DNA from: Chloroflexota bacterium
Lineage (GTDB): Bacteria; Chloroflexota; Limnocylindria; Limnocylindrales; CSP1-4
Direction: 5' to 3'
DNA: 37,707 nucleotides
NCBI GenBank assembly: GCA_030446555.1
Contig: JAUJNA010000003.1
Coordinates: forward strand, 139,122 to 176,828
The position numbers and the translations under genes were made by a program. The notes under the pieces were generated by a model. It did no database searches and was not told where the DNA came from. It was given only the letters and a program-made list of their open reading frames with translations. Positions 23,806 through 36,002 of this stretch are shown here, one piece after another. Position 1 is the stretch's first letter. Each line of letters opens with the position of its first letter.

Positions 23806-23848
23806 CTCGCTGCGTTGACCGCTCGGTCGCCCTGTGCTTCGATACGCG
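23806..23848 (-). repeat. Remnant of integrase 5' coding end, diverged copy of 32779-32821
   Basis: ctcgctgcgttgaccgctcggtcgccctgtgcttcgatacgcg vs ctcgctgcgttgacggctaggtccccgcgtgcttcgatacgcg, same length with about six differences; minus-strand peptides RIEAQGDRAVNAAS / RIEARGDLAVNAAS. Confidence 0.75.
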
Positions 23849-23878
23849 ATGCCGCGGCTCCTTGTGAGCGTGAGGCCC

Positions 23879-23914
23879 GCGCCCGTAGCTCAGTGGATAG
23901 AGCGGATGGCTTCG
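23879..23914 (+). repeat. Partial tRNA-Arg (5' half), putative att site
   Basis: GCGCCCGTAGCTCAGTGGATAGAGCGGATGGCTTCG identical to 32953-32988, then diverges; no 3' half follows. Confidence 0.88.
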
Positions 23915-24454: not shown

Positions 24455-24713
24455 ATGCGGGACGTGCAGCGGTTCCAGGGCGAAGCCGGCATCTCGCAGG
24501 CCAACAGCAAGCGGTACGACCGCATCCAGGACACGCTCGAGGAGCTCGCTGGGATGCTGGTGAGCGAGATGTGGGATACCGAGATGGATAGTGACCCGAG
24601 CTTCAGCGGGCCTCACCGGGGGCATCTGGGACGAGATCGAGCGACGGACGCTCGATTGGGCGGAAGAGGTCGACGCAGCCCGGGACACCCGCCGGGCCGG
24701 AGCGGCGGCATGA
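24455..24713 (+). pseudogene. Small hypothetical helical protein, one frameshift
   Basis: MRDVQRFQGEAGISQANSKRYDRIQDTLEELAGMLVSEMWDTEMDSD.. then GLTGGIWDEIERRTLDWAEEVDAARDTRRAGAAA* in the next frame; stop overlaps the next start as ATGA. Confidence 0.45.
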
Positions 24714-25036
24714 CCGCCGAAGCGACGCTGCTGAGCATCCCGGAAGCGGTCCAGCGAGCCGTAGACGATCTGCCTATCGATCCGGGACAGTGGCTCTATG
24801 ACGTGGTCGGTGAAGTGTTCGAGCGATACGCCTGCAACGATGAGAAGTGCCCGAACCGGCCGGCCTGGGACATCGCCCGGAAAAAGATGTTCGACGAGAC
24901 TGCCACCTCGTTGGACAACGCGATCAACGAGGTGTTGACCAACCGGATCACCAGGGCGCTCGTGGCCTACGCCGGCGAGTACCCCGACGCGCCACGTGCC
25001 TCGTCCACAAAGCCGCTGGTAAGCGCCAGCGCCTAG
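24710..25036 (+). CDS. Hypothetical protein
   Basis: MTAEATLLSIPEAVQRAVDDLPIDPGQWLYDVVGEVFERYACNDEKC...; starts in ATGA overlap with the upstream ORF. Confidence 0.55.
   Translation: MTAEATLLSIPEAVQRAVDDLPIDPGQWLYDVVGEVFERYACNDEKCPNRPAWDIARKKMFDETATSLDNAINEVLTNRITRALVAYAGEYPDAPRASSTKPLVSASA
25005..25025 (+). repeat. 21-bp inverted repeat, left copy (ccacaaagccgctggtaagcg)
   Basis: Exact reverse complement of 27867-27887. Confidence 0.92.
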
Positions 25037-25123
25037 TCTCCGACGGCCACTAAAAGCAGCGCCAATACTCGGTCCTGCCCGCCCCGGCTCCGTGCCGTCG
25101 GCGGGCAGGGCGCATCTCGCCCC

Positions 25124-26518
25124 TTAGTTCGCCCGGAGCTGCTCGAGACGGAGAGCGAGTGCCGCTTCCGTGTCGGCGTGGGCGGGCTCGCCGGCGAGGT
25201 TCGTGAGCTGCCAGGGGTCGGCCGTGAGGTCGAATAGCTCGCGCTCGCCTGTGTCGTACTCGATGTAGTGCCAGAGACCGCTCGGATCGGCGGCGGTCGT
25301 CCGGATGCCCCACCAGAGAGCCGTCCGAAGGCCGCCTGAGTTGTCGGAGCGATGCTCCTCGAGCAGCGCATCACGTCCGAGCGTCCCGGTCCCGTCGACC
25401 ACCGGCAGAAGTGATCGGCCGTCGGGCGCAGCCTGCCCGGTCGGGAAAGGCCCCAAGGTTACGCCGGCGGCCTCGGCGATGGTCGGTGCGAGGTCGATGT
25501 TCTGGACCCACTCACGGACCTCGCGCGCCTCGGCACCCCAGCGCGCTGGCCAGCGCATCCACAGCATCAGCGGCGTCGACGACGAGACACCCTTCAGCGG
25601 CCAGCGGTGGTCACCCCACGCCATCCCGTTGTCGACGGTCAGGATGAAGAGCGTGTTGCTCAGTCGACCCTGCTCGCGGAGCGCGAGCCGGACGTCGCGG
25701 AACATCTCGTCGACCGCGAGCAGCGACCGGCACGCCTTACCGAGTGGCCACCCCTTCGGGAACGTGTCGGACGCGGCCGACTGCGCTTGCATGAACGCCG
25801 GCTCGTCGCCGTCGATCGCGTCCCACGCGGGCGTCAACCGGGTCCCGATCGCCTTGCACCGGGCGTCACCCCTGTGGCGCACCGCTGGCTGCGGGAGCCC
25901 GTATGGGCCGTCAATGCCGTGCGGAGCGAACGGTGACAGGTAGAGGAAGAGCGGCTTGTCGAGCGGCGCCTTCCGCAGGAAGCCGAGCGCCCGATCCCGG
26001 TAATAGTCCGTCGAGTACGGCGCGTTCTTCTGGACACCATCGACCCAGACCGGCACGTCGCGGTAGCCGCCCTCTGCGAGCACGGAGTGGTCCCAACCAG
26101 GAGGCGTCTTGTCCTCGACCAGCACGAAGTCGTTCAGATACTTCCCCGAGGCGATGGTGTGGTAGCCGACGTCCTGTAGCGCTGTGGCGATCGTGACCGA
26201 CGGGTCGAACAGTCGACCGTCGTTCGCCGTCACGCCGTGGTGGTGCGAGTAGAGCCCGGTCAGGAAGGTTGCGCGAGCCGGACAGCAGAGCGGGTCGTTC
26301 CCGAACGCATTCCGGAAGCCGATGCCGCGATCGAGGAAGAACGACGAGAGCACGGGCTGGCGTTCGAACAGCTCGTCCGCGACGTCGGCAGCGAGATCGT
26401 CGAGCATGATCACGACGACGTTCGGCCGCTCATCGCCTGCAGCGGTTGGCCGCGCAGGCACCAGGAGCGCCGCGATCGCGAGCATGACGACCAACGTTCT
26501 CGTCACGAGTCCCCCCAC
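25124..26518 (-). CDS. Exported sulfatase
   Basis: Signal peptide; RPNVVVIMLDDLAADV; formylglycine-type motif CCPARATFLTG; ASGKYLNDF; VDNGMAWGDH. Confidence 0.92.
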   Translation of the reverse strand: MGGLVTRTLVVMLAIAALLVPARPTAAGDERPNVVVIMLDDLAADVADELFERQPVLSSFFLDRGIGFRNAFGNDPLCCPARATFLTGLYSHHHGVTANDGRLFDPSVTIATALQDVGYHTIASGKYLNDFVLVEDKTPPGWDHSVLAEGGYRDVPVWVDGVQKNAPYSTDYYRDRALGFLRKAPLDKPLFLYLSPFAPHGIDGPYGLPQPAVRHRGDARCKAIGTRLTPAWDAIDGDEPAFMQAQSAASDTFPKGWPLGKACRSLLAVDEMFRDVRLALREQGRLSNTLFILTVDNGMAWGDHRWPLKGVSSSTPLMLWMRWPARWGAEAREVREWVQNIDLAPTIAEAAGVTLGPFPTGQAAPDGRSLLPVVDGTGTLGRDALLEEHRSDNSGGLRTALWWGIRTTAADPSGLWHYIEYDTGERELFDLTADPWQLTNLAGEPAHADTEAALALRLEQLRAN

Positions 26519-26898
26519 ATGGCACCACCACGACGGATGGGCCGCGTCACAGTACGCGGAATCGGCGCCCTGTCAATGAGGAGCTCCTTAGTCGATGTCT
26601 ACCTCGGTGCCCGCCCCGCCTTAATCTCCGCCAGGCACCGCGCCATCTCGCGCACGACCGCTTCCTCGCTCGCGGCGATGGGCGGGTCGAGCCCGAGGCC
26701 GCGAAGGAGGCCGTCCAGAAGGCCCCGCTGGCACCCGATACGCCGTTCCTTCCGGCATCGTCCGTGCCCTTGACCCCAGGCCCGCGCCGCCTACGCCCGG
26801 CCAAATCGACGGCGCAAGGGGTCGCAGCGTCGCGCGACTATTCTTTCGGTGGACGGCTAGAGTCGGTGCATCCGGGTATTCGACCGAGCAGGGGGACG

Positions 26899-27835
26899 AT
26901 GAGACTCGCAGCACTTGCGCTGGTGCTCCTGACGAGCTGTACGACGGCCGTCCCAGCCGCTTCGCCGACGACCGTGGCGCAGCCGTCCGGGGCAACGCCG
27001 ACAGAGGCGGCGACAGAGACGCCGATACAGGCGCCCACTCCTACGGACGAGCCGTCGCCCACGCCTAGTGCCACGCTCTCGCCCACAACCGACCTCGGCG
27101 CGCGCGACGCCACCACTCGCGCCGACGGGCATCGCCGACGCCGAGCTCTCGCCTGCGGCGTCGGGCGACGGTCTCGTCCGTCGCGGTCCGCGCGACAGCA
27201 CGCGTATCGCGCTGACGTTCGATGCCGACATGACGGCATCGATGCGACAAGCCGTCCTAGATGGGGAAGCGGCCCACTACGACGCGCGCATCATCGCGCT
27301 GCTCCGTGAAACGTCGACCGAAGCCACGCTCTTCATCACCGGTCTGTGGGCGAAGACGTACCCGTCGCAGGCGCGATCGTTCGCTTCGGATCCGCTTTTC
27401 GAGCTGGCCAACCACTCCTGGGACCACCGTGCGTTCCGGTCGCCTTGCTATGGCTTGGCGGCGGTCACGACGGACAGCGCGCGGCGGCGCCAGATATCCC
27501 GGACTGTCGCGTATCTGCGCGAGCTGACCGGCGTCACGACACGCCACTTTCGATTTCCGGGTGGTTGTCACTCGAGCTCTGACGTCTCTCTCGTCTACGA
27601 CGAAGCACACATCCCCGTGCAGTGGGATGTGGTGTCCGGGGATCCGTTCCAGACGGACGCGAGCGTCATCGTCGACAACGTCCTCCAGGGCACGCGCGGC
27701 GGGTCCATCATCGTCATGCACATGAACGGGCGTCCGAACGCTCCGAAGACCTACCGAGCGCTCAGGACGATCATTCCCGAGCTGAAGTCACGGGGGTATC
27801 GCTTCGTGACGCTCTCGACGCTCCTAGGATCGTAG
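26899..27835 (+). pseudogene. Polysaccharide deacetylase lipoprotein, one frameshift in the Thr/Pro linker
   Basis: Lipobox MRLAALALVLLTSCTT in one frame; catalytic part RIALTFDADMTASM, ANHSWDHRAF, RHFRFPGGCHSS, GSIIVMHMNGRPNAPKT in another frame (ORF 27068-27835). Confidence 0.8.
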
Positions 27836-27866
27836 GGACGAGGCCCTGAGGGAGGCTGGTTGGCAC

Positions 27867-27887
27867 CGCTTACCAGCGGCTTTGTGG
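27867..27887 (-). repeat. 21-bp inverted repeat, right copy (cgcttaccagcggctttgtgg)
   Basis: Exact reverse complement of 25005-25025. Confidence 0.92.
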
Positions 27888-27936
27888 CGCCGTTCTCTTG
27901 TCGCTGGTCCGCGTCACTCCGCCTGGCGGTCAGGCC

Positions 27937-28056
27937 GTGGAGGACCGCCAGATCATCGTCTTCCATCACCCGGACGGAAGGTTCTCGGAGGTCTGGGTCT
28001 ATCCCCAGGACCAGTACCGGATGGACGAGATGATCGCAGCGGGGGCGCCGCGCTAG
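27937..28056 (+). pseudogene. C-terminal fragment of an NTF2/SnoaL-like protein
   Basis: VEDRQIIVFHHPDGRFSEVWVYPQDQYRMDEMIAAGAPR*; no matching N-terminal domain upstream. Confidence 0.5.
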
Positions 28057-29683: not shown

Positions 29684-29713
29684 AAACCGAGGACTCCCAC
29701 CGTTCGGAGAAAT

Positions 29714-29752
29714 GCTTTCTGCCCATAGGTCCTCTTCTATGGGGGCAGAAAG
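29714..29752. repeat. Hairpin B: gctttctgcccatag...ctatgggggcagaaag
   Basis: Inverted repeat arms read directly; same arm motif as hairpins A and C. Confidence 0.75.
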
Positions 29753-29799
29753 AAACGCATCCCTCGAGGACACCGCGTAGCGGTACGGGTCGCCCTCCG

Positions 29800-30690
29800 C
29801 CCCTTGCCCCTCGGACCGCTTGACCAGCGCCGAGCGCCTGGGCAAGCGCCCGCTGAAGCGTGATGCGGGCGCGCGCGTCCCCGAGAGGTGCTCGTGGAGC
29901 TCATCCACGGTCTGCCCTGGCGCGGGGCCGAGCGAGCTCGAGTAGGCTTCGTCCGCGCCTCCATGAGCGCCACCTCGGTCTCGTCGCCCAGCGCGACGTA
30001 CTGCCCGTCGACCAGCTCGACGACGAGCGTGTCGGGTGTCTCGTCGAACCGGCTGAGGGCGTGGATGACGCGGATGCTCGGACGGCTGTTGCCCTCGCCG
30101 CGGGCGGATCGAGCAGGATGTCCACGCCGCCGCCGAACGCGGTGGAGCCTCGCGTCGACTCACCCACGTCGCCGCCGCTCTTGCGCTCGTGTCTGATCAC
30201 GACGGCGAACCCTCGGCGGCAGCGGCCTGGAGCGGCTCGATGGCCTCCTGCGCCTGGCCGGCGCTGTTCTCGCCTTCGCCGCGGATGGCCGCGAACTGGC
30301 CGAGCGTATCCACCACGATGAGCCTGGCGCCACGACGACGCGCCTCGGCGACGGCAGCCCTTCACGACGTCTGGCCATGACGAGGCCGATAGGTGTCCCG
30401 CCAGGTGAGCAGGGTGAAGTCGTCACGGTCGAGTAGGTCAGCCCGCCGCAGCGCCTCGCGGAGACTGGCCGGCGGCTGCTCGGTGAGGTAGACGACGCCG
30501 GTCGATCGTCGGCTGGCTCCATGAAATCGAGGCCATCGAGGACCGCCCGGCAGAGCGCCATGACGAACGTCGTCTTGCCGGCGCTCTTGATCTTGCCGCT
30601 CACCTCGGTTCCCGCTCCGAACGCGACATACGGAGGTGCCGGCCACTCGACGGACGGCGGCAGCTCGGCGGCCATCTCACGGGCCGTGCG
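29800..30690 (-). pseudogene. RepA-like / RecA-fold AAA ATPase (phage-plasmid replicative helicase type), several frameshifts
   Basis: Pieces: PPYVAFGAGTEVSGKIKSAGKTTFVMALCRAVLDGLDFMEPA (Walker A); VVYLTEQPPASLREALRRADLLDRDDFTLLTWRDT; RLIVVDTLGQFAAIRGEGENSAGQAQEAIEPLQAAAAEGFAVVIRHERKSGGDVGESTRGSTAFGGGVDILLD. Confidence 0.75.
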
Positions 30691-31479: not shown

Positions 31480-31901
31480 GGCTTAGACGCTGCGAGGCTT
31501 CGGTAGCCCATCCTCCCGGACCCAACGGCGCACAGTGTCCTCGTTGATGAACCTTCTGGGGGAGCTCGGTGAGGTAGCGGTTGAGTTGATCGGTGACCTC
31601 ACGCCAGCGAAGCGGCTGTCCCAGGGCTTTCATCTGTTCAACATCACGATGCGGTAGTGCGTCGGGAACCTGATACCTGTCGGCCCCGGCGGGTTGTCAC
31701 GAGATTGGTCGGCATAGAGCCGAGCTCCTCGCGCATCTGCGGCCCGGCCATGCGCAGGATGCCTTCCGGAACGTCTTCCAGGTCGTACACCTGGCCCGCG
31801 AGCCAGTCCGATCTCGTGACGAAGGCCATCCGCATCTTCCCACGTGCCAACATCTCCTCAGCGCCTTTGATCTCCTCCGGCGTCGGGTCACGTCCACTCA
31901 T
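31480..31901 (-). pseudogene. Short HTH/excisionase-like ORFs, frame-disrupted
   Basis: MSGRDPTPEEIKGAEEMLARGKMRMAFVTRSDWLAGQ (31901 side) and RRFINEDTVRRWVREDGLPKPRSV* in a different frame near 31489-31555. Confidence 0.4.
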
Positions 31902-32846
31902 AGCTCGTCTCCTGGGTTGAAGCGGCGAGCGGCCGCGATGGCTCGGTCCGAACGGGTCGACGCGGCATAGCGCGCGACCATCTCCCGGCTCCGCCAGCCG
32001 GCGAGCTGCATGAGGTCCGTCTCCTGCATGCCCCCGGCGAGCATCGTGTGGGCGTAGGAGTGGCGGAACTGGTGCGCATGGAGCATCGACACGCCGGCGG
32101 CCGCCCCGCGGTCCCTGAGCGCCTGTGCGATGCCGGAGTCCGTCAGGCGGCCCCTGCGCCCCAGCCAGAGCCAGGGGAGGGCAGCGGCTTCGTGGCGGCT
32201 CCGGAGCCGCACGTAGCGGTCCAGCGCCTTCACGGCCTTGGCTCCGACGTAGACCACGCGCCTCGGCGGCCCTTGCCCATGACGCGGATGACCCCGCTGT
32301 CCAGGTCGAGGTCGTTGGTCATGGCGTCATCGGGCGTCCACCGGAGGTTGGCGCATCTGGCGAGACGTGCGCCCGTCCCGATGAACGTGCGCACGAGCGC
32401 CATGTCGCGCCGCTGCTCGAAGTCCTGCCCTCGCAGGCGGCCAGGATGGCGCGGAGTTGACCGGGCGTGAGCACGTCGGGCTGTTCCTCGGGGATGCGCG
32501 GCTTGCGCATGCGCGCCATCGGCGACTCGCGGATCTCGCCTTCCTCAGCGGCCCAGGCGAAGAACACCTTGAGCGCCACGAAACGGTTGGCCGCGGTGGC
32601 CGGGCGCCAGCGCTCCAGCAGGTGCTCGATGAACGCCTCGACGTGCTCCCGGCGGATGGTCGCCAGGTCGGCTGGCATGCCGCGCTCATCGAGGAACGCT
32701 GCCAGTCGGCCTACCGAGTCCAGGTAGGTGCGCGTCGTGTTCGGGCTGAGGTTGCTGGCGCGGAGGTGACGGGCCCAGCTCGCTGCGTTGACGGCTAGGT
32801 CCCCGCGTGCTTCGATACGCGGTACTGCGGGTGCGGCTCGACTCAT
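31898..32846 (-). pseudogene. Tyrosine recombinase/integrase with two frameshifts
   Basis: N-term SAM-like: WARHLRASNLSPNTTRTYLDSVGRLAAFLDERGM; middle frame: DFEQRRDMALVRTFIGTGARLARCANLRW; C-term: LHAHQFRHSYAHTMLAGGMQETDLMQLAGWRSREMVARYAAS. Confidence 0.85.
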
Positions 32847-32882
32847 GCTCGTGGGGCTCCTGGTGCGGTCCGAAGTCGCGCC

Positions 32883-32938
32883 AGTTTACCGCTCTACAAG
32901 CGCTGTAGGCAAGCCCTCCCGCAGTTATCCGCTCCAAG
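32883..32938 (+). promoter_or_regulatory. Candidate integrase arm-binding repeats (gtttaccgctctacaag, gttatccgctccaag)
   Basis: Two similar words between integrase 5' end and tRNA-Arg; a third, ggttatccgctcaaag, lies at 23973-23988 on the far side of the left att. Confidence 0.4.
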
Positions 32939-32952
32939 TGAGCGTGGAATGT

Positions 32953-33028
32953 GCGCCCGTAGCTCAGTGGATAGAGCGGATGGCTTCGGACCATCAGGTC
33001 GGGGGTTCGAATCCCTCCGGGCGCGCCA
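32953..33028 (+). tRNA. tRNA-Arg (TCG), complete with encoded CCA; attachment site
   Basis: GCGCCCGTAGCTCAGTGGATAGAGCGGATGGCTTCGGACCATCAGGTCGGGGGTTCGAATCCCTCCGGGCGCGCCA; anticodon loop CTTCGGA. Confidence 0.95.
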
Positions 33029-33229: not shown

Positions 33230-33600
33230 CGAGGGCCACCACCTCGCTATGCTTCGTCGACGCCGATCCGCCGTCGCTCGGCAGGGTGCCCGGCGTCAGC
33301 GAGGTCCATGTCCGCGATGCGATCGTGACCTGCCAGCTCGAGGGCGACGTGCAGCCGTTCCTCGACGCGCTCGCCGGGACGCGAGTCGTGGACCTCCTCA
33401 TCGAACCCGCGCGTCTCGAGGAGGCGTTCCTCGAGTACTAGGAGGCGGAGGGTGCCGCGGCGCCTCGTGCGGACGCGGCACGAGCCGGGCCGAACGGCCG
33501 TCGTGGATCGCGCGCTCCTCGGTCGCACGGTCCGGGCGTACCGGGGCCGGTCGATCGCATGTGCACTCGCGCCGAGTCGACGCCGCGAATCTGGCGCTCT
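33230..33600 (+). pseudogene. Remnants of an ABC exporter: ATPase C-terminus and permease N-terminus
   Basis: FVDADPPSLGRVPGVSEVHVRDAIVTCQLEGDVQPFLDALAGTRVVDLLIEPARLEEAFLEYY* then LLGRTVRAYRGRSIACALA; no Walker motifs upstream. Confidence 0.5.
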
Positions 33601-35329: not shown

Positions 35330-36002
35330 CTACGTCCCGAATGGGTCTCGGTCCTCCAGCTGGCGGTGGAAGCGGAGCCGCTGCGGGTCGGCGCCGGACG
35401 CGCTCTGGTCCCACGCCTCGACGAGGCGCGTCGCCTCGCCGTCCACGGTGAAGGCGCCCATGCACACGCCGTCACTGTCGCGCTCGACGCCGTTCCACGA
35501 CGCGCGCGCGTCCGAGGAGCGGAAGCGGAACGCCTCGATGACCAGGTCCTTGAAGCCGCCGACGTTGGCGGCGTGGACCACCGCTCGCCAGCCCCGGACG
35601 TGAGCGCTGAGCGAGGTCGTGTCGAGGTCACCGCCGAAGATCCCCCGAGCAGCATGCGTCGCGCACGGAAGATCATGCCGCCGTCCGTGCTGACGCGGGC
35701 ATAGGTGTTGGCATTCATGCCATAGGCCGACCACGACGTTTTGATCCGGCGGCCCAGGACGGCGCGACCTGTCGAGGTGCCGGCATCGGGGAAGCGTCAC
35801 AGCCGGCCTCCGGCGTCACGAGGTAGTCGGACGCCGGACCGACGTCGAACGGATCGATCCGGACGCTCTCATCGATGGTCTGCCATGCCAGTACGAATGG
35901 CCGACCCACGCGTGCGCTGCGCAGATGTCGGTGCTCGCGTTCGATCTTTGCCTGTCCTCGACGAGCCGCGACGAGCCTCCGGGCGCGCCAAGCCCTCTGC
36001 AC
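35330..36002 (-). pseudogene. Hypothetical protein, frame-disrupted
   Basis: FVLAWQTIDESVRIDPFDVGPASDYLVTPEAG | GMNANTYARVSTDGGMIFRARRMLLGG | IFGGDLDTTSLSAHVRGWRAVVHAANVGGFKDLVIEAFRFRSSDARASWNGVERDSDGVCMGAF in three frames. Confidence 0.5.

Follow-up and report, generated by a model that had tools for sequence, protein, structure and literature searches.

A 21-bp inverted repeat around a sulfatase and a polysaccharide deacetylase gene in a tRNA-Arg island of a Chloroflexota bacterium

Gene content of the locus

The window, i.e., the whole stretch of 37,707 nucleotides that was analyzed, contains the 21-mer CCACAAAGCCGCTGGTAAGCG at 25005-25025 (+) and its exact reverse complement at 27867-27887 (-). 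These are termed copy A and copy B (Table 1); no other exact inverted pair in the window exceeds 16 bp. The earlier note had described a perfect inverted repeat bracketing a sulfatase and a polysaccharide deacetylase, and both the exact, inverted match and the two gene assignments (PF00884, E = 2.3e-31 and PF01522, E = 7.8e-20) were borne out. The sulfatase (-) and deacetylase (+) genes are divergently transcribed and encode the only two domains between the repeats. The catalytic domain of the deacetylase is open from 27068, with one frameshift near 27110.

Table 1. Positions of the features at the locus (numbering of the window)
Feature	Position	Strand	Details
attL-like left island end	23879..23914	+	Exact 36-nt copy of the tRNA-Arg(TCG) 5' half; identical to 32953-32988
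Gene X	24710..25036	+	108 aa; last codons contain copy A
Copy A, 21-bp inverted repeat	25005..25025	+	Within the last codons of ORF 24455-25036
Strong hairpin 3' of the sulfatase stop	25074..25114	-	Probably the sulfatase terminator; z = -3.3; between sulfatase and copy A
Exported sulfatase	25124..26518	-	464 aa, intact; PF00884; C-C-P-A-R...T-G sulfatase signature
Polysaccharide deacetylase	26899..27835	+	Lipoprotein-type N-terminus; PF01522
30 bp between deacetylase homology end and copy B	27837..27866		Matches nothing nearby
Copy B, 21-bp inverted repeat	27867..27887	-	Outer edge adjoins truncated SnoaL-like gene
SnoaL/NTF2-like gene, 3' fragment	27889..28056	+	Homologous to G061:C210 from residue 77 of 130
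Tyrosine integrase, frameshift-split	31898..32846	-	N part 32319-32846, C part 31898-32257; PF02899, PF00589, PHROG 1
Intact tRNA-Arg(TCG), attR-like right island end	32953..33028	+	

Relatives of both enzymes were identified in the genus and family, with up to 52% identity for the sulfatase and up to 69% for the deacetylase. They never occurred together on one contig among the 107 family genomes, and no bracketing inverted repeats were found around them. A phage origin of the gene pair was considered and rejected on the grounds that no DNA match was found in phage records and that neither protein had viral relatives. The same genome also carries a decayed deacetylase fragment on another contig (C13:9857-9991) with 85% DNA identity, the similarity stopping at 27836, just past the stop codon. 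Near this remnant, a 37-bp tRNA 3'-end duplication (G000:C13, L079 1-60 and 4499-4640) points to another integration of the tRNA type.

On the left side, copy A lies in frame within gene X and displays ordinary GC3 there. No homologues of gene X were found in phages, viral contigs, GTDB, or 177 genomes of the class.

A decaying island at a tRNA-Arg gene

The integrase gene is situated just upstream of the intact tRNA-Arg(TCG). The 9-kb stretch between the 36-nt tRNA copy and this intact gene was interpreted as a tRNA-integrated island because a tRNA half is directly repeated at its ends and the integrase lies beside the intact tRNA. In the genus relatives G076:C75 and G078:C5, the counterpart of window positions 20.2-21.4 kb adjoins that of 33.3-33.7 kb and the island is absent. 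The inverted repeat is internal to the island and independent of its tRNA ends. Frameshifts affect the integrase, the deacetylase N-terminus, and several small genes, and the island looks to be decaying. The surroundings had previously been called phage-like; a decayed tRNA-integrated island describes the element better, the frameshifted tyrosine integrase being its sole recognizable mobile-element gene and no capsid or tail genes having been seen.

Several further features were observed in and around the island. A P-loop ATPase-like gene at 29700-30675 (-) is readable only across several frames, reflecting either decay or sequence errors. Besides the tRNA half, the left island end holds a stretch 85% identical to the integrase 5' end (23806-23914 versus 32779-32988), as if an earlier related element had occupied the same tRNA anticodon-loop site and was later replaced. 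The terminal 15 nt of the tRNA-Arg 3' end (33014-33028) recur exactly at 35976-35990, at a distance of 2.96 kb on the downstream side, which suggests that a second element was inserted at this end of the tRNA; in G079 the rhomboid-protease gene region lies directly 3' of the tRNA. To the right of the tRNA, a C-terminal fragment of an apparent ABC transporter ATPase was present at ~33240-33460, the G076 counterpart being on the other side of the tRNA.

Copy number of the repeat and its expectation by chance

The assembly as a whole (2.09 Mb in 21 gapped contigs, 78% complete) contained no third copy of the 21-mer when up to 3 mismatches were allowed, and the 106 other genomes of the 107-genome family contained none at up to 2 mismatches. 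The exact sequence had no match in IMG/VR or in 85,000 GTDB genomes. A search of the genome and its relatives for the 21-mer, or for the two-gene segment with the same ends, accordingly returned no further copy, and the suggestion of a MITE-like pair was abandoned given the lack of other copies in the genome, family, IMG/VR, and GTDB. Diverged end pairs (at least 14 of 21 positions, within 6 kb, over 1.02 Mb) were about as frequent as those of shuffled 21-mers (39-112 pairs each), giving no signal.

The flanks of copies A and B share identities of 0.30 and 0.33 over 60 nt and are therefore unrelated. Since they share no similarity, there is no larger duplication with the 21-bp pair at its center. 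Neither duplicated gene ends, also proposed earlier, nor a conserved coding segment shared by homologous genes on the two sides accounts for the pair: copy B is not in any recognizable gene, let alone one homologous to that of copy A, and gene X is without homologues in the collections searched. The peptide TKPLVS can be read from both copies, as had been pointed out, but only copy A is within a plausible gene. No target-site duplication was identified, in agreement with the earlier note; CCTCGT precedes copy A, CGCCGT follows copy B, and there is no direct repeat at the edges.

Past the stop codon, the transcript of either divergent gene would carry CGCTTACCAGCGGCTTTGTGG, an orientation that fits a shared regulatory or terminator element 3' of both genes. 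This function is nevertheless highly implausible, in that no stable structure is common to the two sites (z = -0.97 and -0.32), a strong hairpin already follows the sulfatase ahead of copy A, and the sequence is present nowhere else in the genome.

The frequency of such pairs was estimated from 1.02 Mb, half of the genome. For this sample, an order-3 Markov null at distances of 0.5-5 kb gave 4.5 pairs of at least 17 bp, 1.5 pairs of at least 18 bp, and none of at least 19 bp. A distance-matched empirical null using unrelated pairs on the same contigs put the expectation for lengths of 21 bp or more at 0.067 pairs per 1.02 Mb, and extrapolation from shorter lengths gave ~0.08 such pairs per Mb. 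The corresponding chance of such a pair is ~0.003 per window and ~0.15 per genome. Other cases were limited to one isolated pair of 21 bp on C18 and to two small repeat families, on C13 and C6. These families consist of direct and inverted repeats of 20-40 bp (G000:C13 143369-150713 and G000:C6 217078-223387; GTCGAGTCGGATCAGGGCATAGTCA type and TAGGGAATCACCCGATGCGAGG type).

The 21-bp pair is unlikely by chance, as previously asserted, though not astronomically so, and scanning many windows would turn up such a pair now and then. Coincidental identity of two unrelated 21-mers gains some weight from the genome-wide expectation, from the isolated pair on C18, and from the selection of this finding out of many windows. 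It is nonetheless an unlikely origin, as it does not predict that the outer edge of a copy should fall 1-2 bp from a gene breakpoint.

A gene breakpoint at the right copy

The best relative of the SnoaL/NTF2-like fragment was G061:C210, a full 130-aa gene downstream of an msrA-like gene, with a DNA identity of 81% starting at 27889. Agreement with this relative was 46/60 bases outward from 27889 compared to 11/60 inward and 1/22 in the last 22 nt upstream of it. A frameshifted continuation of the SnoaL homology through copy B was rejected, the inward stretch aligning locally no better than shuffled sequence (p = 0.24-1.0, against p < 0.0005 downstream), and a 7-nt AGGCTGG match upstream in the global alignment was judged a chance match. 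The conserved N-terminal half of the SnoaL-like gene was absent upstream and from the genome, and the left flank of the repeat is gene X rather than this missing half.

By this alignment, the breakpoint is placed 1-2 bp from the outer edge of copy B (27887). A breakpoint this close to either repeat edge by chance has a probability of ~0.003 (an estimate based on ten positions in ~2.9 kb). The coincidence of the outer edge of the right copy with a gene breakpoint is the new observation here; with the SnoaL homology beginning at that edge, the repeat is tied to a rearrangement junction and is lifted above a chance occurrence. What it marks is either a past rearrangement of the DNA or a transposon-like cassette since lost, and nothing shows present movement or function.

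A junction of this kind may also arise from an assembly artefact or misjoin. The repeat is exactly 21 bp long, a value that short-read assemblers often use as their smallest k-mer, and the record is that of a scaffold with gaps (C2 with 20 N-gaps) in which the window edges are gap edges. The window, however, has no internal gap, and if two pieces had been joined at a 21-mer common to both, true SnoaL sequence would be expected within copy B, where none is present. An artefact is consequently considered very unlikely.

Origin of the repeat

The slightly favored interpretation, at a probability of about 0.4, is that a passenger unit of 2,883 bp (25005-27887), lacking its own transposase, was transposed and that the 21-mers are its terminal inverted repeats. 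A transposase supplied in trans may have recognized the 21-bp ends and moved the unit, which carried the sulfatase and deacetylase genes, beside or into the SnoaL/NTF2-like gene. An adjacent deletion, later or simultaneous, would have removed the other half of the SnoaL gene, bringing the left repeat up against gene X, and the unit would now be stranded in the decaying tRNA-Arg island. This is consistent with a perfect 21-bp pair beyond chance, with SnoaL-like homology starting at the very edge of the right repeat, and with a bracketed segment that is complete toward either repeat, comprising the sulfatase gene followed by its probable hairpin terminator, an intergenic region, and the deacetylase gene. 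A known precedent is provided by passenger cassettes in which 22-bp inverted repeats flank the cargo and a host gene is interrupted (PMC5444012).

The non-autonomous transposable cassette raised in the earlier note is accordingly possible, and the right repeat edge, which adjoins a truncated gene, supports it, but the absence of a transposase within the unit and of a target-site duplication speaks against it. Further evidence against a transposed unit is that gene X, and not the SnoaL half, forms the left flank, that this half is nowhere in the genome, and that neither the ends nor the unit have another copy in the genome, the 107 family genomes, IMG/VR, or GTDB. The same applies to the diverged end pairs, no commoner than for shuffled 21-mers, and to the sulfatase and deacetylase relatives, which never share a contig and lack bracketing repeats. 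The more specific proposal of a two-gene cassette that modifies surface sugars, moved in trans via 21-bp ends of a type absent from the searched collections and residing inside a tRNA-integrated island, is improbable.

A repair scar is a possible, more doubtful explanation that accounts for several of these absences. Here, copy A would be native to gene X, consistent with its in-frame position and ordinary GC3, and copy B would be a functionless 21-bp inverted filler copied from A by template switching during an illegitimate recombination that joined DNA downstream of the deacetylase to the SnoaL-like fragment. Template switching creates perfect inverted repeats in both prokaryotes and eukaryotes (PMC7954356). 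Such an event would explain the single locus, the non-SnoaL left flank, and the lack of a target duplication, of relatives, and of a transposase; copy B sits at the breakpoint, and other truncated or frameshifted genes are nearby. In contrast, the template would be 2.86 kb away, beyond the short-range events described (PMC7954356), the 30 bp beside copy B (27837-27866) match nothing nearby, and the presence of exactly two complete bracketed genes is left unexplained. The transposed passenger unit fits the complete two-gene content and is slightly favored over the scar.

Inversion by a site-specific recombinase was also evaluated, in which the segment would flip and give gene X an alternative C-terminus. 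The length of the inverted sites and the surface-modifying cargo resemble invertons, a tyrosine integrase is encoded 4 kb away, and TKPLVS is read from both copies in the relevant frame. This is scarcely credible, however. The integrase gene carries a frameshift and goes with the tRNA site, and no invertase gene lies next to the segment. The segment itself consists of coding sequence and not of a promoter, and copy B is located at a truncation junction.

Set in a decaying island, the locus is of modest interest. If the 21-mers are true terminal repeats, this high-GC lineage would harbor a passenger cassette that has no known mobilizing enzyme and offers a route for spreading exported carbohydrate-modifying genes. 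If they are a repair scar, the locus would be a clear example of an inverted repeat that arose at a rearrangement junction and mimics a transposon. Either way, it illustrates the value of checking repeat edges against gene breakpoints.

Comparison with known systems

MITEs are small and dispersed elements. The locus shares with them short terminal inverted repeats and the lack of a transposase; it differs in being ~2.9 kb long, in carrying two coding genes, and in being single-copy. It resembles invertons in having ~20 bp inverted repeats around a segment with cell-surface functions, but there is no adjacent intact invertase, only the frameshifted integrase by the tRNA, and one repeat is at a truncation junction.

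Mobile insertion cassettes (MIC/MICE) such as the qnrS2 element of the Aeromonas plasmid pAC3 (PMC5444012) consist of one or more passenger genes between perfect ~22 bp inverted repeats with no transposase, and the locus shares this arrangement of terminal inverted repeats around passenger genes. One end of such cassettes adjoins a disrupted gene, as at copy B. Of the two outer edges, both of which would be insertion junctions in such a cassette, the right one is a breakpoint, and the left one lies in gene X, for which no homologues were found in the collections searched. In contrast to these elements, the locus has no related insertion sequence, second copy, or target duplication, and the missing half of the disrupted gene does not lie beyond the opposite repeat. 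Membership is not claimed because two defining features were tested and not found, namely a target-site duplication and ends matching an autonomous insertion sequence (searched with as many as 3 mismatches in the genome and 2 in the family, and for exact matches in GTDB and IMG/VR).

The surrounding element corresponds to tRNA-integrated islands with a tyrosine integrase. A 36-nt tRNA-Arg half and the full tRNA bracket the 9 kb, and the integrase is encoded beside the tRNA. It departs from typical islands of this type in that the 5' half of the tRNA is duplicated rather than the usual 3' end, and in the frameshifts of the integrase and several other genes.
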